IMG/VR virus record: IMGVR_UViG_3300010354_000279
Coordinates: 1 to 34,818 of that record
DNA from: a virus
Reading direction: 5' to 3' (one strand)
Length of the DNA stretch: 34,818 nucleotides
Shown piece by piece: positions 1,647 through 33,580 of this stretch. Below the pieces are notes generated by a model. That model worked only from the letters and a program-made list of their open reading frames with translations, had not been told where the DNA came from and searched no databases. Positions within the stretch are counted from its first letter, which is position 1. Every line of letters begins with the position of its first letter. The translations under genes and the position numbers were made by a program.

Positions 1647-1690
1647 GTGTTCTCTCCTTTTTGGCGAAATCTAAAGATTCAGTTCTCATG

Positions 1691-1704
1691 GGTTATGTAT
1701 AAAA
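1691..1704 (-). promoter_or_regulatory. Candidate late promoter before the tail sheath gene
   Basis: On the minus strand the gap between gene 17 and gene 18 reads TTTTATACATAACC. The TATACATA core differs at one base from the T4 late promoter TATAAATA. It lies about 47 bases upstream of the sheath ATG, so a transcript would have a leader of roughly 40 bases. The ten bases TTTATACATA recur exactly before gene 13. The match and position are seen; promoter activity is inferred. Confidence 0.5.
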
Positions 1705-1718
1705 CACAAAACTTCTAT

Positions 1719-3828: not shown

Positions 3829-3832
3829 AAAA

Positions 3833-3838
3833 TCCTCT
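3833..3838 (-). promoter_or_regulatory. Shine-Dalgarno site deciding the gene 16 start
   Basis: AGAGGA on the minus strand is followed by TTTT and then ATG at 3828. The competing GTG at 3843 has only GGA in a poor context upstream. The site therefore favours a 171-residue product over a 176-residue one. Confidence 0.55.
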
Positions 3839-3839
3839 T

Positions 3840-5542: not shown

Positions 5543-5545
5543 TTG

Positions 5546-6307: not shown

Positions 6308-6336
6308 TTAATACCCCCTATCCTTTTGTTTTCAAT

Positions 6337-6350
6337 AATATGTATAAAGG
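6337..6350 (-). promoter_or_regulatory. Candidate late promoter before gene 13
   Basis: The minus strand reads CCTTTATACATATT here, ending 30 bases before the gene 13 ATG. TATACATA is one base from the T4 late consensus TATAAATA, and TTTATACATA is identical to the element before the sheath gene. It lies just downstream of a hairpin following the previous gene, which is a sensible place for a new transcription unit to start. Confidence 0.55.
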
Positions 6351-6353
6351 GAT

Positions 6354-6380
6354 AAAAATGGTATTTTGAGTTAATCAAAA
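6354..6380 (-). terminator. Weak intrinsic terminator candidate after the DUF1617-like gene
   Basis: On the minus strand a perfect 6-bp stem (TTTTGA / TCAAAA, loop TTAAC) begins 11 bases after the stop codon. It is followed after five bases by TTTTT. The stem is A/T-rich and the U-run is short and offset, so termination would be inefficient. The inverted repeat is seen; the function is inferred. Confidence 0.3.
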
Positions 6381-6391
6381 CATTCCTAGAT

Positions 6392-6796
6392 TTACACCGT
6401 TTCTGGTTCTTCTGCCAATGCCAATATCTCTTCTATTTCTTCTGTGAAAAGAAACTTTAGCATTTCATACGCTGCTATTGGCATCCGTATGTCTCCTAAT
6501 TTGTGGACAGAAACAGGTTTCCAATCTAATTCTACTTCAGCACTAAGATATTCCTTTAGATCCATTTCATAAAATGGTTTCTTTTCATCGTCAATATCGT
6601 ACTTACCAGTTTCTTCGTTTTTTGTGCCATAGAAAGATAGCAGTTCTTCTTGCTTTTTTGCCATTTCAGCATAATAGACATTTATCTGATCTATTAGATA
6701 AATTGCTGGTGCAATCTTGTCGAGGCTGAAATATTGTATTGCGAGTAGTTCAAATGCTGGGTGTGCTTCAAATAATTGATTTAGTGTTATTTTCAT
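6392..6796 (-). CDS. DUF1617-like small phage protein
   Basis: This acidic protein of about 134 residues is predicted to be mostly helical. MKITLNQLFEAHPAFELLA, then a middle segment ending in KKQEELLSFYG, and VELDWKPVSVHKLGDIRMPIAAYEMLKFLF resemble the family I remember as DUF1617: an N-terminal 'K-L-N-Q-L..A.PAL..LA' segment, then 'R..L..KYG', then a C-terminal 'EVELD...I....LG...ISA...LLALEWLF'. That family is known from tailed phages near tail genes and has no assigned role. I start at the ATG at 6796, seven bases after the preceding stop. An in-frame ATG at 6862 would overlap the 551-residue gene by 59 bases. The Shine-Dalgarno (TGAGAA) is weak, suggesting coupling to the gene before. 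The family assignment is from memory and was not tested. Confidence 0.65.
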   Translation of the reverse strand: MKITLNQLFEAHPAFELLAIQYFSLDKIAPAIYLIDQINVYYAEMAKKQEELLSFYGTKNEETGKYDIDDEKKPFYEMDLKEYLSAEVELDWKPVSVHKLGDIRMPIAAYEMLKFLFTEEIEEILALAEEPETV

Positions 6797-6803
6797 ATTT
6801 TTC

Positions 6804-8459
6804 TCACAATCTATAAATTGTTTTGTCTTGTGGCGATTCTGAAAATTCTTTAGAAAATACAATTTCTTCTATTGAACCTGATATTCCATAGGTGTCTGTA
6901 TTTGAGAGATAGTCTAATTGAGGTATAGAAGTCAATCCAAACAAGTAATTGAATGGCCCTATAACACCGCCTCTCATTCCAGTGAATGCAAACTCATAGT
7001 CTTGACCTTCATATGGGGATATATCTTTTGATAATTTACCACGATAGATAAGACTTCCTTCTAGGGAACCTTTGTATCCAAAATTAGGATCAACAAAACT
7101 TCCTCCACCAACTGTTATTGGTGATACGGGTATGTATTCAATTGAAGGTACGCCTATTCTTTGACCCCATTCCAACCATTGATTTCCAAAGGAATATGGC
7201 TCACCGTTTGGTGATCCAGCAATTCTTATTTTCGATGAATTTCTGCATTCCCAATTCTTGAATTCTGGAACAGAAACAGATATTACATTGAGATCAGAGA
7301 ATCCATAACCAAATAACCAATTCGGGCCATATCTGTATGGCTTTGCACCAGTGACTCCTGCTCTTTTCAGATCATCACCACTTATTGTTAGAAATGTAGC
7401 CAATTCTGTTGGGGTTCCAAAGAACCCCAAAGGAGCAAACTTATCTAATCCACCTATACCATCTCCTTCGACTAAGAGTTGATTTTGAACGATTTCCCAA
7501 TCTGCAAATGGGTGTGCATCAAAACCATGTAGACCAGCATCAACACACATACATTTCTCTTGTATTCCTTCCAGTCCAGGAATAACCTGATATACAAGAT
7601 TTGCGGAAAATCCTGGTATGTCGGCATTTCTTTCGTAATTTCTAATGATATCAGTTGCTATTTCATTCCAAGCATCTCCACCATTTTCAAATCCATTGCT
7701 AAATGCACTTTCACTCACTTGAAGTACACTTTGGTTTAATGCTAACAGAGAGACGATGTTATTTTTAAGCGCAATTCCAGCAGTAACAACACCACCACAG
7801 AGATCAATCATTGCATATGTAAAGAGATTAGCCTCAGTAGATCCACTAGGTGTAGCAAACTCTGAGTCCTTTATTCTTTGTGTGTACAGGTTATATTCTT
7901 CTGCACTAAGATCACCTTTAATTGCATTTGGCCCTCTATAGTCATAATACCATGTATTATTGGATGGATTTAAGATAGATTTTGGAAAACCTATAGAATC
8001 TAATTGTTCGTTTATTTTGTTTAAATCTGATGTCCCTCCTATCAGATTAAAGATTGAACCTAGATTCGGGCCATCTGTGAAATCACCTTCCCAAAGTTTG
8101 GCTATGTCGAATGTATAGCCCATGCCTTGAAAGTTTCTATCACACTTATGATATGAACAGTCGCATGGTGTGTACGATGTTCTAGAGTAACCTTCTGGTC
8201 TAGCAACCAATCTACCATCAACAGTATTTGCTTTTACAAAATTGAAATCCCACGGATTTACACATATACCAGCAGTTTTTCCTTCAATGTCTCTTGTTAT
8301 CTGATTTGATAAAAGGTACATTCCTTGAGACAAAGCCAAGCATCCATCTAGTTCTGATGAGTATTGGGTTGCCCAAGCATATCCTGACTCAAAACCAGGA
8401 GAGTAGCACAGACCTGGTATGTTTATTGGGTTTGGTTCAAAATCTCCACCGTCGCTCAT
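6804..8459 (-). CDS. Cysteine-rich virion protein of unknown family
   Basis: I do not recognise this 551-residue protein. It lies between the beta-helix fibres and the neck genes, where T4 keeps wac (fibritin), so a virion or fibre role is likely. The N-terminal two thirds hold all the cysteines that I count (about 11), including a tight cluster PCDCSYHKC near residue 97 and EKCMC near residue 300, which could bind metal or form disulfides. Aromatic- and glycine-rich sequence follows. The last ~130 residues look beta-rich (GSLEGSLIYRGKLS, YEFAFTGMRGGVIGPFNYLFG). I see no transmembrane segment or signal peptide. The start shares ATGA with the preceding stop and has AAGGAGT six to seven bases upstream. 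Function is unknown. Confidence 0.8.
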   Translation of the reverse strand: MSDGGDFEPNPINIPGLCYSPGFESGYAWATQYSSELDGCLALSQGMYLLSNQITRDIEGKTAGICVNPWDFNFVKANTVDGRLVARPEGYSRTSYTPCDCSYHKCDRNFQGMGYTFDIAKLWEGDFTDGPNLGSIFNLIGGTSDLNKINEQLDSIGFPKSILNPSNNTWYYDYRGPNAIKGDLSAEEYNLYTQRIKDSEFATPSGSTEANLFTYAMIDLCGGVVTAGIALKNNIVSLLALNQSVLQVSESAFSNGFENGGDAWNEIATDIIRNYERNADIPGFSANLVYQVIPGLEGIQEKCMCVDAGLHGFDAHPFADWEIVQNQLLVEGDGIGGLDKFAPLGFFGTPTELATFLTISGDDLKRAGVTGAKPYRYGPNWLFGYGFSDLNVISVSVPEFKNWECRNSSKIRIAGSPNGEPYSFGNQWLEWGQRIGVPSIEYIPVSPITVGGGSFVDPNFGYKGSLEGSLIYRGKLSKDISPYEGQDYEFAFTGMRGGVIGPFNYLFGLTSIPQLDYLSNTDTYGISGSIEEIVFSKEFSESPQDKTIYRL

Positions 8460-11400
8460 GCCCGACTCCTTTCTGATGGTGCAAAAGTATCAGTTGGAAA
8501 CGAACCCTTTATTCCAGACCAACCATACAGGTAAAATTCTCCATACTTTTTACTGTTGTATCTAGAAATAGTATTATCAGCAACTATCAGAGAATCTGCT
8601 TCTGAAGCAAATCCAGATCCAGAATTGAATTCAGATATCGTACTGTTTGATTCGTGATAGAGTACATTTGTACTATGAGTTGGATTGCTGTTTATACCAA
8701 TAGCAGCATCTGGTAAACTTATAGACGGATCGACTAGAGGAGCAGAAATTTTTATCTGATACAGATGGGGTGGCAATTGTGAGTATGTACCAAAATTATC
8801 AACAGTTTTATCTGTGTTGTATGCAGCAAACCCAGAACTTATTAGTTCTTTTCTATAATTTGCACACTTGGTTGAGTTTGCTCCAGCAGATATTGTTGAC
8901 TTATTCTGTGCCAATATTCCATCACCATCATTTGATCTTGCTATGAATTCATAGCATTTTATAGTTGATCTGTTTGTTGCCATAAGACCATGATACCCGT
9001 TCCATATTGATCTGCTTCGATGACAAACTAAGAGACTGTTATTTGCAGCACAGAATCCTATTCCAGAATTGAACTCAGAGAAAGAATTAGTAGCCTTCAT
9101 ATAGGAATTAAATTCGCAAACAAACCCATGCTTTTGACTTCCAACCGATACTGAATTCGAGCAGTCCATAGATGAACTTGCTATAGCCAAATAATTAGCC
9201 ATCTTTGATCCACTGCTTATTGTTCTTTGTGCATTGATATGGGATTTTATGGTACTTTCCATACCAATACCGTTTGCAGTAACAAAGGCAGCAGGGTCTA
9301 TTGCTCTGAACATATCCTTATGATATTGGTTATCGCTATTTCCTAAATCAGCCAAAAGATTTATCAAAGATTGATTCTTTGAAGAAATACCACAAGAGAA
9401 ACTACAAACAGCAATGTTGGTTGCATTTATGACAGACTCTTCATCCGCAAGCAATCCATAATTTCTTGTCTGTGAGTTTGTTCTTCCGAAATTTACTATA
9501 CAAACATCTTTTAGCAATCCTAGTTTGGACTTCTTTGAAATCTTAATCCCATTATTTCCAAAGCGCAAAATAGTCTTAAAGCACTTGGCTCTTATGTTTG
9601 TTGTTTCTAGTGAATACATTGTTTCTATAGGATTTGTGTCAAGAACATTTGGGTCAAATGTTTTGCTTATTATATTGTCATTTGCTGTTATATTAGAACC
9701 CTGTTCGTATGCAAATGAGTATCTGTCAAAAACAGTTAGTCCCATTGCACCCAATCCTCTATTTCCATCACCAACTTTTAGAAAATTGACAAGACCACTA
9801 TACCATACAGAACCCATAGAACCTTCTCTTGGACTATAATCAGATGTGTTTCCAAAACTAAATCCACCTCCAGATATTCCAGAATTCTCATAGTAAAATG
9901 TTGTTGGATCTAAGAAGTATGAATTTTTTGTTGCCGATCTTTCATTTGAAAATGCTCCCCTTGCTCCCCCTGCTATCTTATTGAAGATAGTAACAGGATT
10001 TGCAACATACTGTGGATATGTACTACCAATCAACTTATGGTATCCATCATTGTCATTAATATCACTTAAACTGGGTACAGGAGCACCAGTTGTTGCTCCT
10101 GTGTTGGTAAAGTATCTCTGCTTGTACCAACCTTGAGGAGTGATATATCCACAGAAGAAAGGACTTTGATTTCCTACTTTTTCCCAACGATCTAATTGTA
10201 GTCCCTTTTCAGTTGCATTATCGTTATACCAAGACCTGATTCTTCTAATCAAAGTAGGCTTGTACAACTGACCGTTTATCGGAGGATAGATGTTGTATGT
10301 CTGTAGTAAATAAGACAACTTTGTTTCATCTCTATATTCACTTGGATATGAAGTGGTGTCTACATCTGCTCCACCACTAAATGGTGGTCTACGGACAGCC
10401 GATCCTTCAAAAGGCCCATAGCCAAATCCAGGATGATTGTCTTCATCCCAAGATGGTACTCCTTCTAGATTTTCTGCTCCAGCAAGAAGATAATCACGAA
10501 CTTTCTTAGCCGCTTGAACAAATTTTCTAGTAGGAATAAAAGGATCAGAGGATTCACCAAAGTAGAATGGAAGGTCTAAATTGATTCCTAAATCTTGTAT
10601 CAACTTCTTATAGAAGTAAGAACATATTGTGGAAGATACCACTATTCTGTTGTATCCAGTTAGAGTTTTGTCATTCCATAAAAGTATGGCACTCTTTGCT
10701 TTTTTCCCGTTTCTTGGATCAATAATCTTGTCGTCCAAAGAATTTATACTCAATCTATAACCACGAATCATAATATCTACTATTTCTACTTGTTGAATAG
10801 GATTATCAAAATAGAATTGATCCAATCCTTGTGATTCCAAAGTCTGTGGATTTGAGAGCATCGTTCCACCATAAAACACAGGAGGCATAGAATTGCTCTG
10901 TTTTGATTCTATTGGAGAATTTCCAGGGCCTGCGGCATAAGTGTATATCGCATCACCCTTTTTTCTTCCCAAAGAAGTCCAATATGGAACCATTGAAAGA
11001 TTTTTATAGGTGTGATTTTCATTCTTTACATGAAGAGTAACTACACCAATTTTGACATCTGTGCTTTGGAATAACTCAGTGTCTAGGCTAGAGTAATTTC
11101 CAGAGTGAGTCATAAAAGGCCCGACATCAACAACTTCATGGCAACCCAATATCATGTCACAGCGGATTGCTTCAACATAGCAGTTATTTGTTGTTATTGT
11201 TCTAGAGAGAGGACTTTTAATATTGTTTCTAGCCCAAAAATAAGAAGGATTAGCCTTCTTTATTTTCAAATGGTCATAGATTCCCAAATAGTCACCAACA
11301 GAGATTTTATCCTGATTTGAGACAACTATTTGGCAGTAGTAACCTTCTCTATCAGGAGCCTTGTCATAATAGTTTATTGCAATAACTTCATGGTCTGTTG

Positions 11401-11722
11401 GTTTTACCCCTTTGATCTTAACTCTTTTTGCAGATTCAAAGTCGATCTTTACATCATCTTCTTCAAAATATTTTTTATAGCCACCATCTGAACTGGACTT
11501 AATAGCACCCAATTGTACAGTAACCATGTTTGTCTTGGAGATTATTTTGTTTCTCAGAACATCAATGGCTTTCCCAAGACTTCTGAAAGGACTACCATCA
11601 ACACCACTATTTGCGTCATCGTCTCCATCAACTTCAACATGAATGGTTATATCTTTGGTTGCACCACTTTCTATAAAGGGTACATCATCTGGATCGTCTA
11701 GAAACTGAAAGTTATTTGGCAT
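8456..11722 (-). CDS. Large beta-helix-like fibre protein A
   Basis: This 1088-residue protein is probably a tail fibre or virion decoration. Residues ~60-200 form an N-terminal region shared with the neighbouring 1073-residue protein: VKIKGVKPTDHEVIAINYYD, then EGYYCQIVVSNQDKISVGDYLGIYD, NPSYFWARN and GCHEVVDV. From about residue 700 a run of roughly 20-25-residue units with N-x-S and G-I/F-A/S-x-x-x-S patterns appears (for example NRSTIKCYEFIARSNDGDGI then LAQNKSTISAG). This is the pattern of a right-handed parallel beta-helix as in phage tailspikes and pectate-lyase folds. The middle part (~330-600) contains unique tyrosine- and proline-rich sequence. I cannot point to catalytic residues, so depolymerase activity is only a possibility. 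The stop overlaps the next start (ATGA). Confidence 0.8.
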   Translation of the reverse strand: MPNNFQFLDDPDDVPFIESGATKDITIHVEVDGDDDANSGVDGSPFRSLGKAIDVLRNKIISKTNMVTVQLGAIKSSSDGGYKKYFEEDDVKIDFESAKRVKIKGVKPTDHEVIAINYYDKAPDREGYYCQIVVSNQDKISVGDYLGIYDHLKIKKANPSYFWARNNIKSPLSRTITTNNCYVEAIRCDMILGCHEVVDVGPFMTHSGNYSSLDTELFQSTDVKIGVVTLHVKNENHTYKNLSMVPYWTSLGRKKGDAIYTYAAGPGNSPIESKQSNSMPPVFYGGTMLSNPQTLESQGLDQFYFDNPIQQVEIVDIMIRGYRLSINSLDDKIIDPRNGKKAKSAILLWNDKTLTGYNRIVVSSTICSYFYKKLIQDLGINLDLPFYFGESSDPFIPTRKFVQAAKKVRDYLLAGAENLEGVPSWDEDNHPGFGYGPFEGSAVRRPPFSGGADVDTTSYPSEYRDETKLSYLLQTYNIYPPINGQLYKPTLIRRIRSWYNDNATEKGLQLDRWEKVGNQSPFFCGYITPQGWYKQRYFTNTGATTGAPVPSLSDINDNDGYHKLIGSTYPQYVANPVTIFNKIAGGARGAFSNERSATKNSYFLDPTTFYYENSGISGGGFSFGNTSDYSPREGSMGSVWYSGLVNFLKVGDGNRGLGAMGLTVFDRYSFAYEQGSNITANDNIISKTFDPNVLDTNPIETMYSLETTNIRAKCFKTILRFGNNGIKISKKSKLGLLKDVCIVNFGRTNSQTRNYGLLADEESVINATNIAVCSFSCGISSKNQSLINLLADLGNSDNQYHKDMFRAIDPAAFVTANGIGMESTIKSHINAQRTISSGSKMANYLAIASSSMDCSNSVSVGSQKHGFVCEFNSYMKATNSFSEFNSGIGFCAANNSLLVCHRSRSIWNGYHGLMATNRSTIKCYEFIARSNDGDGILAQNKSTISAGANSTKCANYRKELISSGFAAYNTDKTVDNFGTYSQLPPHLYQIKISAPLVDPSISLPDAAIGINSNPTHSTNVLYHESNSTISEFNSGSGFASEADSLIVADNTISRYNSKKYGEFYLYGWSGIKGSFPTDTFAPSERSRA

Positions 11723-11738
11723 TATCTATCTCCCAATA

Positions 11739-14700
11739 TTAATATGTAGGATATCCGTCACCAGAAGATTGTTGTGGAGTGCTAGAAGTGTTTATGGAAA
11801 TAATTTCAGCAGCAGTTGCCCCAACATTGACTGTGATTGCTCCAGTATCAGGATCGGTCTTACCCAGGTTCAAGATATAGGGAGTGTTGTTTACAAAGCC
11901 TAATTGGGACACTGGATCAAATAATTCTGCTGCCGATAGGAAATCTTCAGAAGAATATCTGATTATCTTATTTGCTAACTTTGGATCAAGCGTTCCTTGT
12001 CCCTGATTACCGAATATTCCTGTTTCTAGCGTAATTTGATCGGTGATAACCAATTCGCTTCCGTTTCTATTTCCAGAGTAACCAATCAAAGTTGCTGGCT
12101 TCAGCATTCCTGATTCTTTAGCACTTCCTGGGTATAGAGGCTGAATCCTAACACCAGTTCTTATGTCATAATAACCAAAATTTGCAATTCTTCCTGCAAA
12201 TGCAATTTTTGCAGAGTCTCTAATTTCAACATCATAATTTGGTAGAATTAGTCCAATAGGTCTTTTTGGAGTTCTGTGGGCTATACCTTGAGAAACACAG
12301 ATGATATTTTCTAGTAGAGAATTAGAATCTGCTGTGCAAGCAAGGGTATTCGATTGCATAAAGAAACTATCTGTTGGTGTTTCTGCTGTATTTCCAGCCA
12401 ATATGTTTTCAACACTTGTTGATGGGCTACAAGCACCTCTTGCTGTATTTCCTCCTGGGGGGAAAGCAGCACCTGGCCCTTGTGCCAAATCATAGTAGAC
12501 GCCACACCCTATGAGATAACCCTTGCATCCTAATATCTTTCCAATAGTAAGTCCAGAGAAAGCACCATACTCTCCTTCCAATCCACCTATAATTGTATTG
12601 TATCTTGTTTTTGATACTGGAATTTGAGCAGTAACACCCACACTTTCTGCATATGGAATACAAATAGATGCTATTGGTGTTGACTCTGGAATCAAAGCAT
12701 TCAACATATCATTTGTGTTTCCACCGTCAAAGGAAGCAGGATTGAAAACAGCATTATCACAATACTTAAATGTTGCATCACAAAGAGATCCAGCAGAAGA
12801 ACCACCATAACAATAACCCACAACATTCGAATACACACAACTAACATCTTTCAATCTTCCGTGTTCTCCACCCAATCTAGAGTTATCGTTGGTTTCAAAG
12901 AAAGAAGCATTGACAAAGGAATCAGTAGAAGAAGCCAACCCCGATATACCATTAAATCTTGCTTGTGATATGTTTGTAGGATTCTCAAACTTATAATATG
13001 GCTGCTCGTAACCATAGAACAAGTCCCATTCTATTGGTTCTTTTGATGAATCGCCACAAATTATGGTAGACATATCGTTTGCAACTATTCCATCTTTCTT
13101 ATTAGAAGATGCTATAACATCAAACGCTCTAATTTCTCCAGAAGAGAATGCATGAATTCCATTACCGTAGTTGTAACAGGCTCTTCCCGAGTTTATTGTT
13201 ACAAGGCTTCCGTTTGAGGAAAAGAAACCATCAGAACCATTGAAACAAGAGAATGCCGAGTCTGCATTTATGAAACTCTTTCCTACTGCTACTATTCCAT
13301 ATTTTTTAGAACAAGTGGAAACTGCTGCATAGGCATTGATATATGAATTTTCTGCTGCATAGTAATTTGCAAATAAATTTCCACTACCAATGGAACGATG
13401 AGCATTGATATTGGAGTGGTTTCTTGCCTCATATCCAGTATAATTACAACAAGAGAATGCCCCAACCTCTCTGAAAACTTCTGGATCAGAGAATTTATCT
13501 GCCAAGATATTAACTGTTGATTTGTTATTTGCAAATATACCAGCACCTTTTCTGAAACCTACTACTGCAACCTGATGTAGATTTACAGATGAACTATTCT
13601 CGACCCTTATACCATGACCAGTAGAACCAATTTCAGAAACAAGAATGATGTTTTTGATTTCGGTGGGCTTGCTATTATTGCAGATTATAAACCCATCAGA
13701 TTTGCAGCGAATGATAGATTTGAAACCTTTAGCACGGAAATCGTTGGTATCTCTATAATTTCTGGTAACTATGTTGTCTCCACTAGTTTGGGCAAGTCGA
13801 TCATATCTTTCCCATCCATCACCAATGGACTCAACTGTGAGTCCATCAAGATACATTCCAGTAAGACCTATTCTATTATCAATGATTTGCGAGTGTTGTA
13901 GATTAGAAAGTTGAGAAGAGCCATTTCCATCTTGGAAATTGAAATATGTTGAGAATAATCCACCACCACCAGCAGCAAGTATACCATACTTATAGTGAGA
14001 GGAACTTCTGTATCCTGGTATGGAGGCTATATCTCCATTCCCAGATACTCCAGAAGAAAGACCGCTGAAGAAAAGAGGATCTTCTAATACAGAAGAAGAA
14101 CCATATCCCTGTTCAAATCTACCAATAACACCTTGAGGTGTCATATATGCTCTTCTAGCAAAATCTACTGTATATTCAGTAAGACCTATTGTGTAAGTCG
14201 GATTATAGTTTTTAATCCTAACAGTAACATAGTCAACTTTGTTTCCAGGATTGGATTTATTTATGAAAGAACCATCTGTTGTTCTAGTAAAATCTAAGTC
14301 GATTTTATCGACTATTTCGTGAACACCAACCATTAGTGATGCTCTCAATTTTTCAGCAGTCACTGGATATGGTGTTGCAAATACTCTACCGTTTACATCA
14401 TCTCTAAATCTATAAAATGAAGGATTCAGATATTTTTGATATCTATTGTCATATACTGCAAGATATTCACCTATCTTCAAACTAGCACCATTGCTTATTA
14501 CAAACTGTGCATAGAATCCATCTTCAGAAGCCAATTCTGTATTAGAAAACTTACTGTTAACAGTCGTCAATAAACTGTGTTTTGCTGCATCATAATAAGA
14601 AACACCGAATATTGAGTGATCTGTCGGTGCTATTCCTTCAATTACTAATCTTTCACCAACAGGGTGGTCGATTACAACTGGAACATCAAACGAATGAGCA

Positions 14701-14960
14701 GTTAGGGTTCTTCTAGCATCTAGCGTAGAACCTTCCGTGTCTTCAAACTTTATCGTAATTTTGACTTCATCATCAATAAACTGATCGTTTAGAGAATTCA
14801 ATGCACTTTGTATTTGAAAATCAGCAGACGGTTGCGATTGCAATTTCTTCAAAAAGACACTTTTATATGGATTTGGGATAGGAGTACCGTTGGACAACTT
14901 TTTGTAGAAATTGTTGTCTAGATTAGATACATCAAAATTGAAACCAGCGGTATATGACAT
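11739..14960 (-). CDS. Large beta-helix-like fibre protein B, paralogue of A
   Basis: This 1073-residue protein has the same architecture as its downstream neighbour. The N-terminal region includes LVIEGIAPTDHSIFGVSYYD, then DGFYAQFVISNGASLKIGEYLAVYD, LNPSFYRFRDD and GVHEIVD. These align segment by segment with protein A. Residues ~440-650 hold beta-helix-like repeats such as NNKSTVNILADKFSDPEVFR, ENSYINAYAAVSTCSKKYGI, GSFINADSAF-like units and EIRAFDVIASSNKKDGIVAN. The C-terminal third is different from A, with glycine- and alanine-rich non-repeat sequence, and ends SSGDGYPTY. The pair presumably arose by duplication and then diverged. A role in host recognition or surface glycan binding is inferred from fold pattern and position after the collar fibre. 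Confidence 0.8.
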   Translation of the reverse strand: MSYTAGFNFDVSNLDNNFYKKLSNGTPIPNPYKSVFLKKLQSQPSADFQIQSALNSLNDQFIDDEVKITIKFEDTEGSTLDARRTLTAHSFDVPVVIDHPVGERLVIEGIAPTDHSIFGVSYYDAAKHSLLTTVNSKFSNTELASEDGFYAQFVISNGASLKIGEYLAVYDNRYQKYLNPSFYRFRDDVNGRVFATPYPVTAEKLRASLMVGVHEIVDKIDLDFTRTTDGSFINKSNPGNKVDYVTVRIKNYNPTYTIGLTEYTVDFARRAYMTPQGVIGRFEQGYGSSSVLEDPLFFSGLSSGVSGNGDIASIPGYRSSSHYKYGILAAGGGGLFSTYFNFQDGNGSSQLSNLQHSQIIDNRIGLTGMYLDGLTVESIGDGWERYDRLAQTSGDNIVTRNYRDTNDFRAKGFKSIIRCKSDGFIICNNSKPTEIKNIILVSEIGSTGHGIRVENSSSVNLHQVAVVGFRKGAGIFANNKSTVNILADKFSDPEVFREVGAFSCCNYTGYEARNHSNINAHRSIGSGNLFANYYAAENSYINAYAAVSTCSKKYGIVAVGKSFINADSAFSCFNGSDGFFSSNGSLVTINSGRACYNYGNGIHAFSSGEIRAFDVIASSNKKDGIVANDMSTIICGDSSKEPIEWDLFYGYEQPYYKFENPTNISQARFNGISGLASSTDSFVNASFFETNDNSRLGGEHGRLKDVSCVYSNVVGYCYGGSSAGSLCDATFKYCDNAVFNPASFDGGNTNDMLNALIPESTPIASICIPYAESVGVTAQIPVSKTRYNTIIGGLEGEYGAFSGLTIGKILGCKGYLIGCGVYYDLAQGPGAAFPPGGNTARGACSPSTSVENILAGNTAETPTDSFFMQSNTLACTADSNSLLENIICVSQGIAHRTPKRPIGLILPNYDVEIRDSAKIAFAGRIANFGYYDIRTGVRIQPLYPGSAKESGMLKPATLIGYSGNRNGSELVITDQITLETGIFGNQGQGTLDPKLANKIIRYSSEDFLSAAELFDPVSQLGFVNNTPYILNLGKTDPDTGAITVNVGATAAEIISINTSSTPQQSSGDGYPTY

Positions 14961-25118: not shown

Positions 25119-27200
25119 TCAAATCTTGATTAGTATTGATACTCTTTCCATTTGAACCCTGCTTCTAGTCTTGTTCTCTGTATTTTCTATGTAGATCATT
25201 TCTCCAGAAAGAGGCTCAAACGCTGGTGGATCAACAAAGACAACTTGGGCAGTTCCTTTATTTGGTTCAATCGTCCCTCCCGCCGTCAAAACATCAAACG
25301 AAAGAGAAGCAGAGGCTCCTCTTGTGATTATATTATCTATACCAACCACACCAGTTAATTCAATATAATGAGAAGCAGACGCTCCAGCATAACTTACTCT
25401 TCTTATTGAGAATATTCTAGAATTGAATTTATCTGCACTTACCCCCATAATATAGGCAAATCCATTTTTATACGAAGATAATGGCTGGCTAAAATTAGTT
25501 GCAGTAAGTCCAATAGTTGTTGTTAATTTATAGGCTTGGTTTATTGCGTTCCCTCCTATGAATGGAGAAGATGAAACTACTATTCCAACATCTTTTGCCA
25601 ATCTCTTGAATTCTGAGCCAGGTGAACTGTGAGAATATATTGATATGTTTTCTCCATTGACGCCAAATGAAGACTCCACCAATGACCCATTTAAGCCATT
25701 TACCAACAATATCCAATCTCTTCCGCTATTTCTGATGTTTTGTATCTTTCCAACAGACCGTGTAGTTTCACCGAAGATATAGTTTCCAGAAACTATGGAG
25801 GAAATATCCGCTGTTCCAGTTAGAACTCGCAAGACAACTTCATCATATTTACCATTTTCAGTTCCAGCAATTTTACCAGTATTCCAAAGGAGCGGGTCTT
25901 TTACAATTGATATTTGTCTAAATGAACCATCAGCCAATTGAAGCGTTGATGCCGTTTCCCCCCCATCTATATCAACACAAAGTTGAATGTAAGTTGGATT
26001 GAGTTCATTTACTGCATCGTAACCATGACCACCAAAGGGAGCAATATTTGGGTGAGAAGAAAAGTTTATCAAAGAACCTAAAGGAGCAGGGTTTGTTGTA
26101 AGGGCATAGGTATAGTCTCTTCCTCTATCAGTTACAACGAATTTTTCTACATCAAATGATTTGGGAAATTCTGTTAGTTTAAGATAACCATTTCCTCCAG
26201 TTCCATCTCCCAATATCTTTATTGTTGGGGCTATTTGATAATTAGATCCAACTGGGACATCTTTTGGCAAAGGCTCTCTAAAAGAAATAAGCCCACCCGA
26301 TGCAGCATATGTGTATCCTGTTATCTCTCTGAAAATTCCAGCAGCAGCCCCATTTGTTATCGTTATAGTATATTCTCTATAAATATTATTTGATTGTGAT
26401 ATCAAAGTAGGACTACCAATCACCATTGTTGTTGCACCAGACACACCAGATATCACTCTATAGTCTTGACTCTTCGCTGTAGAGACAGATACACTATATG
26501 CAGAATTTGGAATATTTGCATTACCAGAAAGACCTGTTGTTGGATTAATGAAAACACTGTCTATAGTTCCAGGGATGGCATTTTCTTGCACTTCATATTG
26601 TAGGACTCTTTCACCATAGGCATAATTTGCCTTTGCTTTTGAGATTGGAATATAGTTTGTCTCATCGCTGAATTGGGTTATAAGTCTTTTTTCATACTCG
26701 GGAACAGTATACAGATACTTCCATGTATAACCATCAGGAGTGCTAAATGCATTTTCCGTGTCTTTTGAAGAGGGTTCGATCAAAGACGGAAGACCCGTTT
26801 CTTCTATGTTTCTTCCATTTTCTAGACACTTGTACACACTGCCATCGGATGTAAAAACATAGTACAGATATCTTTCATCAAAGATGTTAGTGTTTGATGC
26901 ATACTTTGCGTATCTAGTGCCTTTTGTCCATTGGATCAGCGGAACCATCAAACGAATATCGTTTGCTCCTATTCTTTTTGCAAAGAAGCCATCACGAAGG
27001 CTGTTGTTGTAGTCTTCTACAGAATCAATGGGAAAAGGAATAGTCTCACCACCAGGTGATAGTATGACTCCGTTTCTTGAGTTCCACGGATAACTTCTAC
27101 CCAATACAACAAAGTATGATCTTTGCGGGTCTAATATTTCCCTGTAAAGAGCACTGGCAATTCCTTTTCTTATGACTTCTTTTGTTGTTTGTGTGGACAT
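25119..27200 (-). CDS. 8: Baseplate wedge protein (gp8-like), enlarged
   Basis: This wedge subunit has 693 residues against 334 in T4 gp8. Three separated segments match T4 gp8: SYFVVLGRSYPWNSRNG at 28-44 (T4 IFITFGRSEPWSSN), DGYTWKYLYTVPEYEK at 156-171 (T4 DGYVWEYLFEIPPD) and the very C-terminus SGEMIYIENTENKTR..ILIKI (T4 SGEMIYMENRPPI..ILFTF). FRQISIVKDPLLWNTG also corresponds to T4 FRQISIITNPLEAK. The additional ~360 residues are inserted between and after these landmarks (beta-rich, glycine/serine-rich), a feature I associate with marine T4-like phages. It lies in synteny between the gp7-like block and the gene 10 position. The ribosome-binding site is AGGAT. Confidence 0.88.
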   Translation of the reverse strand: MSTQTTKEVIRKGIASALYREILDPQRSYFVVLGRSYPWNSRNGVILSPGGETIPFPIDSVEDYNNSLRDGFFAKRIGANDIRLMVPLIQWTKGTRYAKYASNTNIFDERYLYYVFTSDGSVYKCLENGRNIEETGLPSLIEPSSKDTENAFSTPDGYTWKYLYTVPEYEKRLITQFSDETNYIPISKAKANYAYGERVLQYEVQENAIPGTIDSVFINPTTGLSGNANIPNSAYSVSVSTAKSQDYRVISGVSGATTMVIGSPTLISQSNNIYREYTITITNGAAAGIFREITGYTYAASGGLISFREPLPKDVPVGSNYQIAPTIKILGDGTGGNGYLKLTEFPKSFDVEKFVVTDRGRDYTYALTTNPAPLGSLINFSSHPNIAPFGGHGYDAVNELNPTYIQLCVDIDGGETASTLQLADGSFRQISIVKDPLLWNTGKIAGTENGKYDEVVLRVLTGTADISSIVSGNYIFGETTRSVGKIQNIRNSGRDWILLVNGLNGSLVESSFGVNGENISIYSHSSPGSEFKRLAKDVGIVVSSSPFIGGNAINQAYKLTTTIGLTATNFSQPLSSYKNGFAYIMGVSADKFNSRIFSIRRVSYAGASASHYIELTGVVGIDNIITRGASASLSFDVLTAGGTIEPNKGTAQVVFVDPPAFEPLSGEMIYIENTENKTRSRVQMERVSILIKI

Positions 27201-27222: not shown

Positions 27223-27233
27223 TGTATTTATGT
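27223..27233 (-). promoter_or_regulatory. Possible late-promoter-like element before gene 8
   Basis: The minus strand reads ACATAAATACA, containing CATAAATA, one base from the T4 late consensus TATAAATA. It overlaps the stop codon of the upstream gene and ends 23 bases before the gene 8 ATG. A similar CATAAATAA occurs inside the beta-helix gene near 14257, so chance is a real explanation. Confidence 0.25.
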
Positions 27234-28937
27234 TGCTTCATTGCCGACATCATCAATTCCCACCACTGGTAGATATGGAGTTTGATAAGTATTCAAGAAT
27301 GTCTTGAATGCATTAGCATTTGGACAACGATCAATAAATCTTTGTTGTCCTGTTGGAACAAAACTATCGGGAAAAACTTGAAGGGCATTGTGTGGTAACA
27401 TGAAGTGGGGTATTGTTCTGTTTGTTCCAGTATCTCCAGGCAGATCAAATCTATCTATTAGATTTCTTGCAGCATAGATGTGCAAGAATTGCAACCCATC
27501 CATAAATGTTGCAGCACCAGGTTCTTCTGGTGCTTTATAGATGGGTATTCTTCTGTCTCCATCTGATCCAGTTTCTCCAAATGCATTGAGATCCGTATAT
27601 CTTGCTGGTGATCTATTGAAACTGAATCTTGCTGTTTTGGGCCCAACTCCACCCCAACGATAATTTCTCATATATTTCACTCTACCCAACTCACTGTATC
27701 TGTGCTTTGTTGGATCGGGATAATATGACCAATCTTCCGCAGAGATAACATTCATACCTAAGTATGGAGAAGGCTCCAATGCACCATTGTCTAATCTTGT
27801 TTTGACATGAGGGCCAGCCTCAACCCAAAGCCGATCTAGCCCTACTTGATCTTTTAACCAAGAGAAGAATTCCCACCAACCCATTTGTGCTTGTCCAGAA
27901 AGCAAATTTCCAGGAATATATGCTCCTGGTTCTTCTCCGGGACAAGTTGAAAGAGCATCTAAACCTATTAGCATTCCACACTCAATAAGAGGTTGCACCG
28001 AGTCCTTGAGTCTTTGGAGAGCATCATCATAACTAAGAGCAAAAAGCCTGTTCCATCTTGGATACTGATTTTCTTCTTCTGCACCGTATCTGGATATTGT
28101 GCCGTTATATGTCAATACCGTTATTGGATCATTAGGATTAAACCATTCTGTAATTATTTGCCATTGTTGATTTGTTAATTTTCCTTGTCTTCCTGATATT
28201 AAGGCTTTCCAAACATCAATGAAATCATTTGTCAACCAAGCCATTGGGCTACCCCACTGTATTCCTAAGTCACTCCAACCATCTCTTGCGCAGATGAAAG
28301 AATCTGCCTGATATGAAAGATTTTCCCAATTTTGAAATATTGGATTGAGCACAGGTAAAACTGGTCTTCCAAACGGAGAATGTAATTCAAACTGCCTAGC
28401 ACCCCATTGATACCATGCACGAATAGACCACGGATGAACTTGACCTGATCCAGCAGGATTATATCCTTCAAATGCAGCACCTTGACCATTGATAAAATCA
28501 AACCAAGTGAAAGAACCATTTTCACCACCAAATGCACAGGCACGGCTATAAGGAGCAGCAGTTACAACATCTCCATCAAAATTATATGCTACCCAAACCC
28601 TGTCCATTATGTTTTGTTCAACTGATCTGAATGCAGCAAAAGAAAATGCTTGAACCTCATCTGGTAAAGACGGAGTGGGAGAATTTATTTTTGAAATGAT
28701 ATTATCATATTTTTCCGCACCGTCTAAAACCTGAGTTTTTGTATTTTCTATTATTTGCTTTATATTAGTTACAGTTTGATCTGATACAGAGTCAGTAGAA
28801 GTTGTTATGTTTGGCTGTATGGTATATTCGTGTATAGTAACATTGTCTAGTGGAGTTTTGATAACAGAAGCACCTTGAGTGAGGTCTTTCTTTCCCACCA
28901 ATGTTGTGTTTTTATATTGTCCAGAAAAACTAGCCAT
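27228..28937 (-). CDS. Baseplate-region protein, possible TIM-barrel enzyme-like domain
   Basis: I do not recognise a named family for this 569-residue protein. Residues 1-110 are polar and look like a virion-attachment segment (TNIKQIIENTKTQVLDGAEK). From ~113 on, hydrophobic strands alternate with amphipathic helices as in a (beta/alpha)8 barrel: VWVAYNF (114-120), RQFELHSPFG (181-190), PITVLTYNG (271-279), GMLIGLDALS (321-330), DRLWVEAGPH (368-377), GMNVISAEDW (394-403). Acidic residues E184, D327, E373 and E401/D402 fall at predicted strand ends, where glycoside hydrolases place catalytic acids. Tryptophan is abundant (IRAWYQWGA, EDWSYY). It is placed between the gp7-like and gp8 wedge genes, so it is presumably a baseplate component. 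An enzymatic role is inference; a purely structural barrel is equally possible. Confidence 0.78.
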   Translation of the reverse strand: MASFSGQYKNTTLVGKKDLTQGASVIKTPLDNVTIHEYTIQPNITTSTDSVSDQTVTNIKQIIENTKTQVLDGAEKYDNIISKINSPTPSLPDEVQAFSFAAFRSVEQNIMDRVWVAYNFDGDVVTAAPYSRACAFGGENGSFTWFDFINGQGAAFEGYNPAGSGQVHPWSIRAWYQWGARQFELHSPFGRPVLPVLNPIFQNWENLSYQADSFICARDGWSDLGIQWGSPMAWLTNDFIDVWKALISGRQGKLTNQQWQIITEWFNPNDPITVLTYNGTISRYGAEEENQYPRWNRLFALSYDDALQRLKDSVQPLIECGMLIGLDALSTCPGEEPGAYIPGNLLSGQAQMGWWEFFSWLKDQVGLDRLWVEAGPHVKTRLDNGALEPSPYLGMNVISAEDWSYYPDPTKHRYSELGRVKYMRNYRWGGVGPKTARFSFNRSPARYTDLNAFGETGSDGDRRIPIYKAPEEPGAATFMDGLQFLHIYAARNLIDRFDLPGDTGTNRTIPHFMLPHNALQVFPDSFVPTGQQRFIDRCPNANAFKTFLNTYQTPYLPVVGIDDVGNEAT

Positions 28938-28949
28938 TATATTCTCCTG

Positions 28950-30545
28950 TTACTGTGTAATTATAGGCACAAGCATTTTTGATACATCATCTATGCTTAT
29001 GTCTTGAAAGAGTGTTCCTGCTGGAATTGCTGTCATGCCTCTAGTAGAAGGATGGGGAAAAACAATCCAATGAGTTATTCCTGCAACTTGACTTTCGGTG
29101 TCATTTCTAAGGAATATTCTATCTGGTGCAAAATTTCCAAACAAGAAAGCAGTGTTTCCACCAGGACCGTTTGGTGGAGTTGCTCCTGGATTGACAAAAA
29201 CTGTTCCAACATTCCATTTAGAGAAAACCTTTCCCCAAGTTTTTGTTGGATTTTGGTCGCCAGCCTCTAGGGGATTGAAGGCAACCATTGATCCAGCACC
29301 AGTTCCAGCACACAATCCATATGATGCATAAGAGCCAATGCTTGGGTATTCATAAGCCATTATTCTGGTTTTATATTCTGTCGGCTTAGAGGTAATAATA
29401 TTATTGTACAGAGAATTGAATACTGCAAATCCAGCAGGATGTAAAATAGTTCTAAGTGCCTCTATGTACTCTTCTAGTGATCGTTTAGATTTTATAACAT
29501 ACGAGAACTGCTGATACTGAAAACTGTCTTGTATTCTAGATTCTTTATTCAATAAGTTTTTGGTATTTTCGTATTCATCAACTTGACTAGAAATAATACT
29601 CTTAGTAACAGACAGATCAGCACCAGTTCCAAAAGCCGTTTCAAAATAAACGGTGTCCGTTCCTGTATAGTTTACTGGATTTGAGAATAGTTTTACCTTT
29701 AATACGGAACCCCTTTCATCAGTATTTGAAACAAATCCTTTTATGAAATCTTGGTGGGTATTTCCAATGGAAAACATATCTCCAACAGCATAACCTGTAC
29801 CACCAGACACTATTTCCAATTCAGATACATTTGAAATAGCATAGTGATAGAAGAATTTTTTATCCTGTTCTATTACTGTTGGCATAAAATCAGACTCAAC
29901 AAAATTTCCAACAGGGTTTGAGAGAGAAAGTATGAAATATTCTTTGCCTCTTACGGATACTTCATTCGCATCTTCTATTGTTGCACTGCCGATAAGAGTA
30001 TCTACTCCTTCATACTGCTTTATTTGAAGTCCTTTAAGTTTAAAGGGATCAAACCCCAAAGATAAATTAGTGTAATCTTTCAAAAGATACATTTTGTAAT
30101 AGTCTCTGTAATTTCCAGAAGAAAGAACAAAGACATAATCACGGGGATACTCAATTGCAGTATCCGATCCAGTTATGATTTTGAATAACAGTTTGATTGA
30201 CTTTTCATTTCCCTTTATCTTGTAAAATTCACGAATATTCTTTATAAGGGTTCTTTCATCAATCACCCCATTTGCGTTCTCGGCAAATGTCTTTGGAAAT
30301 CCATATAGATAAGTATTCTTGAAATTTTTTAAGAATTCATCTGTGGTTGAGTCTATGTCGAAATATCTGTCTCCATTCTTTAGAAACTCAATAGGATTAC
30401 CATACTGATCCAACCACTCATAATATGCTTCCAAAAAGTCTACAAATAAAGGATATTCCTCCAGTATAAATCGGGGAACAGATTGCTTTATGACTTTCGA
30501 GAAGCCACTTCTTCTAGCAGTTAGTGATTGGTTCGATGTTGCCAT
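28950..30545 (-). CDS. 7: Baseplate wedge protein, similar to C-terminal part of gp7
   Basis: This 531-residue protein begins with VPRFILEEYPLFVDFLEAYY EWLDQYG, then TLIKNIREFYKIKGNEKSIK and LLFKIITGSDTAIEYP. These parallel the C-terminal third of T4 gp7, where an 'FEAFCEAYIQYL' segment is followed by 'RFFESRSYDFYSTKGIEASY' and 'KFLFKVLYNEEVEIE'. Later, LHPAGFAVFNSLYNNIITSK aligns with the gp7 'VHPVGFGFIAITLL' segment. T4 gp7 has 1032 residues, so this version lacks the N-terminal half and corresponds to the short wedge protein of marine T4-like phages. Its position directly after gene 6 is that of T4 gene 7. The last ~130 residues are proline/glycine-rich and unassigned. The upstream Shine-Dalgarno is GGAAG. 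Confidence 0.8.
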   Translation of the reverse strand: MATSNQSLTARRSGFSKVIKQSVPRFILEEYPLFVDFLEAYYEWLDQYGNPIEFLKNGDRYFDIDSTTDEFLKNFKNTYLYGFPKTFAENANGVIDERTLIKNIREFYKIKGNEKSIKLLFKIITGSDTAIEYPRDYVFVLSSGNYRDYYKMYLLKDYTNLSLGFDPFKLKGLQIKQYEGVDTLIGSATIEDANEVSVRGKEYFILSLSNPVGNFVESDFMPTVIEQDKKFFYHYAISNVSELEIVSGGTGYAVGDMFSIGNTHQDFIKGFVSNTDERGSVLKVKLFSNPVNYTGTDTVYFETAFGTGADLSVTKSIISSQVDEYENTKNLLNKESRIQDSFQYQQFSYVIKSKRSLEEYIEALRTILHPAGFAVFNSLYNNIITSKPTEYKTRIMAYEYPSIGSYASYGLCAGTGAGSMVAFNPLEAGDQNPTKTWGKVFSKWNVGTVFVNPGATPPNGPGGNTAFLFGNFAPDRIFLRNDTESQVAGITHWIVFPHPSTRGMTAIPAGTLFQDISIDDVSKMLVPIITQ

Positions 30546-30546
30546 A

Positions 30547-32523
30547 CTATATTCTTCCGAGTGTAGGTAGTGTTATCGGCACACTATTTGGTAGAGGCGG
30601 TGTGAAAGGTGCTGTTGGAACTGTGTACGGAGAGAAACCAAAGGCTATTCCAGAAGGAGAAACCAAAACAGGGCCTTCGGGGAGAATACCTCTAGATGAA
30701 AGTGAATCAGTAAAATCTTTTGATGCACCACGCATATTTCTTTGAACTTCATCATTTGTCATAACTTCAATATAAATGGACTCGGTATTTGTTGTTATGA
30801 TCTTATTTTTCATGGCAAATATGTCATTTGATTCTGGTGTTATTCTTATTTTGATGTGATCTGTATTTCCAAAATCGTTAGGCATAAACTCAAATATTGT
30901 AAGATTTCCACTGAAATAATCAACCTCTCCAGCGTTTTCTACAATGATGATTTTGTTGTCTCCCTCACCACTAACAATAGAGAGAAGTCCATTACCATTA
31001 TCTTCGATGTAACAACTCTTTATTTCTCCAACAGCATTTTTATATCCAAACAAAGATGATCGAACTCCTCCTCTATAACCATTGTAGGGGTGGTATATTC
31101 TGTTATAGAAACGAAGGTCAATCAATGTTGGGTATATTGTGCTAGGTCTTATCTGTTGTTCAATGTTTAGTTTTAGTTGTGTTCCTAAAATAGAAGAATC
31201 AACTTCATCTAATAATTTATTCAGTTTAGATGTATACAGAGAAACATCAAATTTTTCCAAGACTTCATCAAAGTATTCTAGAGCCTTTTGTCTTTGTAGT
31301 GCTCCTATTTCATTTCTGGATAGAGAAGTCTTTGAAGGATCAAAGTTTGTGTTTATTGTCAAGAATGCATAGAGGTATTCTGGATCAACTATTTCTGGAA
31401 CTATTCCAACCATTGATTTTTCTTTGATAGAATTTGATAGTTGTCTTTTATCAAGATCAGATATTTTAAGCCCACCAGTTGGTTTTATTGAAACAAATAC
31501 CTTTCCATATTGAGGTGGGTTGTTTTCTTCCCCACCCCAAACCTTTACCGTTTCTGCCTGTGGGTATAAAGAGTAAATGGTGCTTTCGTAATCTTTTGCC
31601 GTTACACTTCTGTTCTGAGCAGAGAAAGCCTTTACTGCATTTTTTCTTATGCTTGTTACATCCTCTGCTTCTCCACCACCAGTTGCTGGAGAAACTGTTG
31701 TTATTGCTGCACCAGACATAACAAAGGTAGAGTAGAAGTTTCCTTCTTCTCCACCAGATTGTAGATATTCGATATAGACTAAATTTCCGTCGTTTAGTCT
31801 CTTACCAAGAACACCATCTCCAAAGAATACTTCATATTGACCATCATATGCTGCTTGTAAGAAGAATACTCTTTGACCCTCTCCTAATTGTGTAAAATCT
31901 TTTGCTAAGTACCAAGTTTCGGTATCATCTTCCGACATTGCTGCACTTTGTCTTATCTTCACACGAATAGTTGATATATCTGCATTCGATGGAACAAGGA
32001 ATTTTCTCTCTCTTATTCTTTCATCATAAACATATGTAAGAGTTTGGAGAAATCCCTCAGAAACAACAGCATCGGTTACTTTCCAATTATTAGTTCCTAC
32101 TTGAGTGTATTCATAGTCTTCTAAAAAAGTAAATGTTCTTGATTCTGTTTGGTTATTATCATTTTTGTAAGTTCCTATGAGAGTATCACCACGATTGATA
32201 GACCCTGATGTTGTTCTCTGAAGATTTATCACAGCCCTTGCTGATGTTGTTGATCTGGGAACATAGTTCAACATCTTTGCGTGGGACACCACTGAATCTT
32301 TTTTAGATGCACTGTCTAGAAACATCTCATTTCCGACCATGCTTGCATAAAAAGCAGCATAGTGTGTATTGTATGCCAATATATCCATTAGGATATTCAT
32401 GGACGATCCTTCAAAATCATAACCACTTAGGCTCGACTTCGACTTGAGATAATTCTTCAAATTAGTCTTGATTCCTTCAAAATCAAGTTCTGTTATGTCC
32501 AAATAGTTTTCGTTATTCGCCAT
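30547..32523 (-). CDS. 6: Baseplate wedge protein (gp6)
   Basis: This is the wedge subunit whose dimers form the continuous inner ring of the baseplate and trigger sheath contraction. It has 658 residues (T4 gp6 has 660). It contains the typical N-terminal region NYLDITELDFEGIKTNLKNY, FEGSSMNILMDILAYNTHYA, MVGNEMFLDSASKKDSVVSH and AKMLNYVPRSTTSARAVI. The middle has GQYEVFFGDGVLGKRLNDGN and YESTIYSLYPQAETVKVWGG, as in gp6/baseplate J-like proteins. The C-terminal ~40 residues are proline-rich. The gene starts directly after the gp25 stop (TAAATG) with the ribosome-binding site GAGGTTGAG. Confidence 0.94.
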   Translation of the reverse strand: MANNENYLDITELDFEGIKTNLKNYLKSKSSLSGYDFEGSSMNILMDILAYNTHYAAFYASMVGNEMFLDSASKKDSVVSHAKMLNYVPRSTTSARAVINLQRTTSGSINRGDTLIGTYKNDNNQTESRTFTFLEDYEYTQVGTNNWKVTDAVVSEGFLQTLTYVYDERIRERKFLVPSNADISTIRVKIRQSAAMSEDDTETWYLAKDFTQLGEGQRVFFLQAAYDGQYEVFFGDGVLGKRLNDGNLVYIEYLQSGGEEGNFYSTFVMSGAAITTVSPATGGGEAEDVTSIRKNAVKAFSAQNRSVTAKDYESTIYSLYPQAETVKVWGGEENNPPQYGKVFVSIKPTGGLKISDLDKRQLSNSIKEKSMVGIVPEIVDPEYLYAFLTINTNFDPSKTSLSRNEIGALQRQKALEYFDEVLEKFDVSLYTSKLNKLLDEVDSSILGTQLKLNIEQQIRPSTIYPTLIDLRFYNRIYHPYNGYRGGVRSSLFGYKNAVGEIKSCYIEDNGNGLLSIVSGEGDNKIIIVENAGEVDYFSGNLTIFEFMPNDFGNTDHIKIRITPESNDIFAMKNKIITTNTESIYIEVMTNDEVQRNMRGASKDFTDSLSSRGILPEGPVLVSPSGIAFGFSPYTVPTAPFTPPLPNSVPITLPTLGRI

Positions 32524-32916
32524 TTATCTCAACCTCTCTACAGGTAGGAACAGTTGTAATGATTCTCTTGATCCACTTTTTTTCACAGTAAATGATAGGT
32601 CTACTTGATATTTATTATCTTCTGGATAAGGTGTAACAGTTACATTCAGTGTCGATATTCTAGGTTCATATTGCTCAACAAGATATTTTATGTTTGTTTT
32701 CATAAGTGTTGCAGTTGCTACATCCATCGGTTCGAATAAAACTTCATATAAGGGAGATGAAATCTCTCTATTGAATGGTTTATCAAACGGAGCCAACCGT
32801 AATAGATTTTTTATCGCAATTTTGATAGCAGCCTCGCCAGATGAAGAGGAAAGATCACTAGAAAGAGGATGGGATTTGAATGAAAAGTCAAAATCCTTGT
32901 ATATCTGTTCAGCCAT
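32524..32916 (-). CDS. 25: Baseplate wedge / sheath initiator (gp25)
   Basis: This gp25-like subunit starts sheath assembly on the baseplate. It has 130 residues (T4 gp25 has 132). The family features are visible: IKIAIKNLLRLAPFDKPFNR, then SPLYEVLFEP, and the conserved EPR motif at residues 84-86 in VEQYEPRISTLNV, followed by the beta segment KYQVDLSFTV. The EPR motif is the signature of gp25-type sheath initiators in phages, T6SS (TssE) and other contractile systems. The gene lies directly before gene 6, as in marine T4-like phages; in T4, gene 53 holds that place. It starts one base after the preceding stop (TAAAATG) with GAGGAAG as Shine-Dalgarno. Confidence 0.94.
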   Translation of the reverse strand: MAEQIYKDFDFSFKSHPLSSDLSSSSGEAAIKIAIKNLLRLAPFDKPFNREISSPLYEVLFEPMDVATATLMKTNIKYLVEQYEPRISTLNVTVTPYPEDNKYQVDLSFTVKKSGSRESLQLFLPVERLR

Positions 32917-32917
32917 T

Positions 32918-33580
32918 TTACTTCTTCCTCTCGGTACTCAGAACAAACTCTATACTATTTCTGGCTTCACTGAATTTATCATAAAAGCGATCATTCTGAA
33001 CTCTGTCCGCAAACTCCCATGCACACCATTCACAGAGAATACATCCTATTTCTTCTCTTTTAGTGCTTCTTAACGGAAGAACTGAAAACATAAGAACATG
33101 GTTGGACTGAAGATAAGATTTAAAGAACGAATCTTTCAGAGTGCCAGTATTTATCAGATTTGGTTCATTTTCATGTGCCATTTCCAAAAGATCTGCAAAC
33201 AGAGACACCATAATATCATTACTACCAGGAAGAGTTGGCTTCATTCCAGGATGACAAGATTCGTGGGTCATTGACATTTTTTTCATAGATTTCCCATTAG
33301 AGAAAAATCCTCCGTTGTGATACTGAAGAACCTTTACTCTACAGGCATCGGTATCGTACCGTAGACGGTTCAAAAATTCATTTATGTTTTTGTCCACGGA
33401 GAAATCAGGTGATTTCTTAGGCTTTTTCTCGCCTTTCCATAGATCAGTTAAAAAATCACTTACTGGTTTTCTTATCTTTATCCAACCTATGACTAAACCA
33501 GCAATTATTGCTGCCAACATGACACTAATTTCAAACCAATACTTCATGTTTTGGAACAATTCCCCTGTATCTTCAGTCAT
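32918..33580 (-). CDS. Single-pass membrane protein with GAF-like soluble domain
   Basis: I do not recognise a named family for this 220-residue protein. Residues ~16-35 (FEISVMLAAIIAGLVIGWIK) form one transmembrane segment followed by a positively charged stretch (KIRK, KGEKKPKKS), so the soluble part probably faces the cytoplasm. The soluble part has RVKVLQYHNGGFFSNGKSMK at 81-100, then KMSMTHESC, and IGCILCEWCAWEF at 178-190. This V-L-Q-Y-H-N-G / M-S-x-T-x-E arrangement looks like a GAF-type sensor fold, and C180, C183 and C186 could bind a ligand or metal. The start shares ATGA with the PAAR-like gene stop. A lysis, sensing or membrane-docking role can be imagined, but none is shown. Confidence 0.75.
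   Translation of the reverse strand: MTEDTGELFQNMKYWFEISVMLAAIIAGLVIGWIKIRKPVSDFLTDLWKGEKKPKKSPDFSVDKNINEFLNRLRYDTDACRVKVLQYHNGGFFSNGKSMKKMSMTHESCHPGMKPTLPGSNDIMVSLFADLLEMAHENEPNLINTGTLKDSFFKSYLQSNHVLMFSVLPLRSTKREEIGCILCEWCAWEFADRVQNDRFYDKFSEARNSIEFVLSTERKK

Follow-up and report, generated by a model that had tools for sequence, protein, structure and literature searches.

A predicted TIM-barrel protein resembling glycoside hydrolases in the baseplate wedge gene block of a T4-like phage

What might a protein of 569 aa be doing between two baseplate wedge genes of a T4-like phage? The sequence examined here is a single IMG/VR virus record of 34,818 bases (the window, meaning the whole stretch of DNA that was analysed), and the ORF in question is intact and closely preceded by a ribosome-binding site of the AGGAG type. 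Its neighbours were matched in Pfam and PHROGs, and this bears out the sequence-only reading in placing the gene between the gp7-like and gp8 wedge genes. The features of the block are:

32524..32916, minus strand: gp25 baseplate wedge protein (phrog_261, 8.3e-37)
30547..32523, minus strand: gp6 baseplate wedge protein (phrog_219, 1.6e-145)
28950..30545, minus strand: gp7-like baseplate wedge protein, the upstream neighbour (PF23786, Baseplate_wedge, 2.4e-17; phrog_17744, 2.5e-44)
27228..28937, minus strand: the whole 569-aa protein (from ORF, translation and ribosome-binding site), with a short conserved N-terminal segment, a linker and a predicted (beta/alpha)8 barrel
25119..27200, minus strand: gp8-like baseplate wedge protein, the downstream neighbour (phrog_438, 2.6e-61; PF09215, 4.7e-8)

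In the order of transcription, gp25, gp6 and the gp7-like gene precede the 569-aa ORF, and the gp8-like gene, large structural and tail proteins, genes of the gp13–gp15 type and the terminase genes follow it. The same reading had called the protein rich in tryptophan, and at 3.3% its content is indeed the highest among the 21 window ORFs examined, the runner-up having 2.4%. Elsewhere in the window, a putative membrane protein of 220 aa (32918-33580, phrog_14038) adjoins gp25, as it also does in the viral contigs L002, L003 and L004, and a homologue is present in L117. Two adjacent paralogues of about 1.1 kaa (8456-11722 and 11739-14960; 33% identity over 276 aa), which gave no Pfam or PHROG match, are probably tail fibres.

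The window shares the wedge genes gp6, gp7, gp8 and gp25 with T4, whose gp7 and gp8 are not known to be separated by a barrel gene. In Ochrobactrum phage OC and Pelagibacter phage HTVC008M, unlike the window, no gene intervenes at this point, and in the other T4-like phages examined the position is either empty or filled by unrelated genes, so that the gap is a site of variable insertions. Unrelated inserts were seen there in L049, L051, L052, L059, L096 and others, often beginning like MAKQSIGLGSSANDGSGDTLRAGGD. When viral contigs were searched with the neighbouring gp6, three informative relatives were obtained. One of them, L002, carries a full-length homologue (51% identical) in the same slot of the same T4-like block, flanked by gp7-like and gp8-like genes. 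In the other two, L003 and L004, the slot is occupied by a protein of 116 aa that matches the first ~50 residues of the 569-aa protein and nothing beyond them. The N-terminal part of the protein can accordingly be divided as follows:

28785..28937, minus strand: residues 1-51, a conserved N-terminal segment that is present without the barrel in the 116-aa protein of L003 and L004
28611..28784, minus strand: residues 52-109, a variable linker, poorly conserved in the family alignments

Identity between residues 1-51 and the 116-aa protein is 46% over 52 aa (tblastn), and when an HMM built from the N-termini of the window and L002 proteins was run against 9,583 ORFs, it recovered L003 and L004 at E = 4e-8, whereas the best of the other ORFs reached E = 3.2. 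This segment is likely a baseplate-docking peptide.

The remainder of the protein proved to be new to the sequence libraries. As a query, the 569-aa protein had no match in Pfam, PHROGs, NCBIfam or the PDB sequences; isolate phages gave none when searched with six different family members, and neither plasmids nor two scans of GTDB genomes returned a relative at the sensitivity of sequence searches. None of the glycoside hydrolase (GH) families of Pfam and NCBIfam matched the query, and the best weak match of any family member lay far below significance. The family was therefore enlarged from viral contigs, by profile scans with successive conserved stretches as queries, to 27 aligned sequences, the members being 29–56% identical to the query. 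Two further candidates, L093 and L094, were discarded as chance matches to one motif. The barrel domain is thus a phage protein family that is absent from the libraries searched and common to several phage protein architectures.

With the 27 sequences, AlphaFold2 gave a confident model of residues 98-569 (pLDDT 87.1, pTM 0.89), an earlier model from six sequences having been discarded at pLDDT 38. Eight strands (114-119, 182-186, 273-278, 323-326, 370-373, 396-400, 421-425 and 509-515 in protein numbering) alternate with helices in (beta/alpha)8 order, and the structural neighbours are TIM barrels, so that on this model the protein is a TIM barrel, as the sequence-only reading had proposed. 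The same reading called the protein glycosidase-like, and this stands as a likeness of general class. In a second-look structural alignment to the PDB, glycoside hydrolases, transglycosidases and the Cwp19 transglycosylase made up 48 of the best 50 matches (Z 9.8–11.7), and an ene-reductase and a HisF barrel accounted for the rest. The families represented among these 50, which we assign from entry titles and general knowledge, are presumably GH13, GH20, GH29, GH31, GH36, GH77, GH168 and GH1, besides Cwp19. Foldseek by itself gave weak matches: against solved structures the best E-value was 7e-4, with low TM-scores of about 0.3, and among viral models nothing was found below E = 0.001. Since no single GH family stands out, the conclusion concerns the fold and the general class and not membership of a family. 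The barrel and the residues that bear on its activity are:

27270..28610, minus strand: residues 110-556, the (beta/alpha)8 barrel domain (AlphaFold2 model and structural neighbours)
28380..28382, minus strand: H186 at the end of strand 2, conserved in 25/27 members
27957..27959, minus strand: D327 just after strand 4, invariant (26/26), candidate nucleophile
27819..27821, minus strand: E373 at the end of strand 5, invariant (26/26), candidate acid/base
27732..27737, minus strand: E401/D402 after strand 6, neither site invariant but one or both of them acidic in all complete members
27690..27704, minus strand: H412 and E416 between strands 6 and 7, both invariant (26/26)

It had been suggested that the predicted strands end in acidic residues (E184, D327, E373 and E401/D402), and that their conservation in homologues would be a guide to their importance. 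For D327, E373 and E401/D402 both points hold, the former in the AlphaFold2 model and the latter across five architectures, where the counts of 26 refer to the members that cover the positions. E184 fails as a catalytic candidate, being a glutamate in five of the 27 members and a histidine in 13; the strand does end in a conserved residue, namely H186. A further acid, D212, is invariant in all 27. Because D327 and E373 are retained in every one of 26 members at identities of 29–56%, the pattern goes beyond chance. On average, the C-terminal and N-terminal strand ends are equally conserved (0.56 and 0.57, respectively), and the argument for an active site therefore rests on the invariant charged residues. 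To judge from the strand ends of the model, D327, E373 and E401/D402 would cluster in one pocket. H186, D212, H412 and E416 might just as well bind metal or have a structural role.

In the predicted model, D327 and E373 form a conserved carboxylate pair at C-terminal strand ends, as is general among glycoside hydrolases, and the layouts of individual families can be compared with it. Clan GH-A enzymes (GH5 and others) carry glutamates at strands 4 and 7, which does not agree with the aspartate at strand 4 and the lack of a conserved acid at strand 7; GH20 enzymes have an Asp–Glu dyad at strand 4, and in the present family the residue after D327 is alanine in 24/26. In clan GH-D (GH27, GH31 and GH36), with aspartates at strands 4 and 6, D327 together with an acid at 401 or 402 would fit, neither of the latter positions being invariant. 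GH13 enzymes require a third aspartate at strand 7. No acid is conserved around 421-428, and neither PDB nor Pfam gave a GH13 sequence match, which speaks against membership of that family. There is nevertheless a close resemblance to clan GH-H (GH13 and GH77; cyclodextrin glycosyltransferase 4jcm and D-enzyme 6lx1), which has the barrel fold in common with the window protein and gave the best Z, 11.7. In GH13 the nucleophilic aspartate ends strand 4 and the proton-donor glutamate ends strand 5 (PMC9781549), and the window protein is alike in D327 and E373. It differs in having neither the strand-7 aspartate nor the conserved regions of GH13, nor any detected sequence similarity.

Proteins containing the barrel were found in five architectures:

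Form 1: N-terminal segment and barrel, in the baseplate block (window and L002)
Form 2: DNRLRE-like N-terminus and barrel (L083, L084, L088 and L104-L106)
Form 3: barrel alone (L110, L112, L113, L117, L119, L123, L125 and L126)
Form 4: proline/threonine-rich N-terminus followed by the barrel (L114 and L116)
Form 5: barrel within giant proteins, the shortest about 1,500 aa and the longest more than 3,000 aa

All six members of form 2 matched one stretch of NF033679, at E = 2e-4 to 1e-2 and 16–21 bits against a cut-off of 34 bits; the window protein does not carry this DNRLRE-like domain. The alginate-binding family CBM96 is about 30% identical to DNRLRE domains (PMC9971899). The giant barrel protein is encoded after gp15 in L115 and L120, with gp16–gp17 downstream of it in L115. 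The L115 protein (1091-8170; 2,360 aa), between gp15 and gp16 of a T4-like phage, has no Pfam match along its whole length. In the barrel tree, the window and L002 sequences lie next to the DNRLRE-fused members in an eight-member set (97/97), with a narrower grouping at 88/86, and a position inside the DNRLRE-fused group is as expected for domain capture. Given this placement and the barrel-less proteins of L003 and L004, the data suggest that a short baseplate protein, the older partner, acquired the barrel; loss of the barrel in L003 and L004 is the converse reading, which we do not prefer. Values of dN/dS for the barrel (0.04–0.12 in three pairs) indicate strong purifying selection. Two close pairs of giant-form barrels (L129/L130 and L132/L133) gave 0.6–0.9, from alignments unchecked by eye. 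GT11-type glycosyltransferase genes lie close downstream of barrel genes in L114 (4665-5507), L118 (1232-2089) and L116 (10047-10877), assigned in L114 by PF01531 (1.1e-26) and in the other two by sequence resemblance. A Cohesin-domain protein (PF00963, 3e-7) is encoded directly upstream of the stand-alone barrel in L112 (6620-7816), and a protein resembling it is found in L104 (12856-14067).

Since a predicted fold like that of sugar-cleaving enzymes sits between baseplate genes, the phage may bring along a glycan cutter of its own, mounted on the baseplate. The reading that we favour, with a probability of roughly 0.55, is that a short baseplate protein has captured a glycan-cleaving barrel enzyme, now anchored to the virion in the form of the 569-aa protein. 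The N-terminal ~50 residues would dock on the wedge in the region of gp7 and gp8, and the barrel would act as a retaining glycoside hydrolase with D327 as nucleophile and E373 as acid/base, perhaps with help from E401/D402 and H186. As part of the particle, the enzyme could cut a host surface or extracellular glycan during adsorption or penetration, opening the envelope to the baseplate. This reading is favoured by the gene order shared with L002, the confident barrel model and its glycoside hydrolase neighbours, the invariant D327 and E373, the barrel-less N-terminal segment of L003 and L004, the tree, the link between DNRLRE domains and CBM96, and the purifying selection in three pairs. Against it count the failure to match any GH family in sequence, the low TM-scores with no family ahead of the others, the lack of a conserved acid at strand 7, the conserved H186, D212, H412 and E416 with their possible metal-binding or structural role, and the dN/dS values of 0.6–0.9 in some giant forms.

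Other readings must be set against this. An inactive barrel that binds a glycan or receptor, and so serves as a receptor-binding module of the baseplate, would suit the virion location indicated by gene order, the abundance of tryptophan and the modular exchange among phage proteins, which is also seen in receptor-binding domains; yet a pure binder has no obvious need of D327 and E373, invariant in 26/26 members over five architectures, and we regard it as unlikely though worth keeping in mind. Much the same standing, or slightly lower, is given to a metal-dependent TIM-barrel enzyme outside the glycoside hydrolases, such as an AP-endonuclease-like protein or a phosphodiester or ester hydrolase, with its metal at H186, D327, E373, D402, H412 and E416. 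Two histidines that are invariant or nearly so, together with several fully conserved acids, are what such an enzyme would show, and the UV damage endonucleases in the Foldseek list include the lowest rmsd among the matches listed (7.7, 2j6v), but they rank below the glycoside hydrolases and outside the best 50 of the second-look alignment, and H186 is missing in two members.

Both of the remaining possibilities seem very improbable. A purely structural baseplate part without a ligand would agree with the position in the wedge block, but L003 and L004 have the same wedge genes without the barrel, and the domain also occurs outside baseplate operons. Proximity of some relatives to glycosyltransferases (such as the GT11 gene of L114) could point to an intracellular, non-virion enzyme that acts on glycans or in virion glycosylation and is simply housed in the operon; this is hard to reconcile with an N-terminal segment that recurs in the 116-aa protein at the corresponding place of L003 and L004, or with the barrels of L115 and L120, which lie within a giant protein after gp15.

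A broader proposal, tentative and given somewhat less than even odds, is that glycan-cleaving barrels borne on the virion form a new family among T4-like phages known from metagenomes only, passed between the docking peptide of the baseplate, a domain that resembles sugar-binding ones and the giant proteins of tail operons; they would be the first members of a new GH family. If active, these barrels would be glycan cutters that phages of uncultured bacteria plug onto different virion parts; they would help to show on which surface glycans of the host infection depends, and would supply enzymes without known relatives. The barrel-less L003 and L004 offer a natural comparison for their barrel-bearing relatives.

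Beta-helix tailspikes account for most known phage depolymerases, and to our knowledge baseplate enzymes of other folds are rare; a literature search for a TIM barrel in the baseplate wedge found nothing. Known systems come close in separate respects. The functional region of Cwp19 of Clostridioides difficile, a GHL10/DUF187 lytic transglycosylase (5oq2 and 5oq3), acts on cell-wall glycan (PMC6016235), and its likeness to the window protein lies in a single barrel fold (Z 11.3, 258 residues, rmsd 5.4, 5% identity to the predicted barrel). Gp255 of the jumbo Bacillus phage vB_BpuM_BpSp is an active GH25 virion enzyme that binds the baseplate protein Gp287 (PMC4870245). Like it, the window protein would be a glycan hydrolase of a myovirus, borne at the baseplate as a polypeptide in its own right, but Gp255 belongs to a known family and has been shown to be active, whereas the window protein is a predicted enzyme without a known family.
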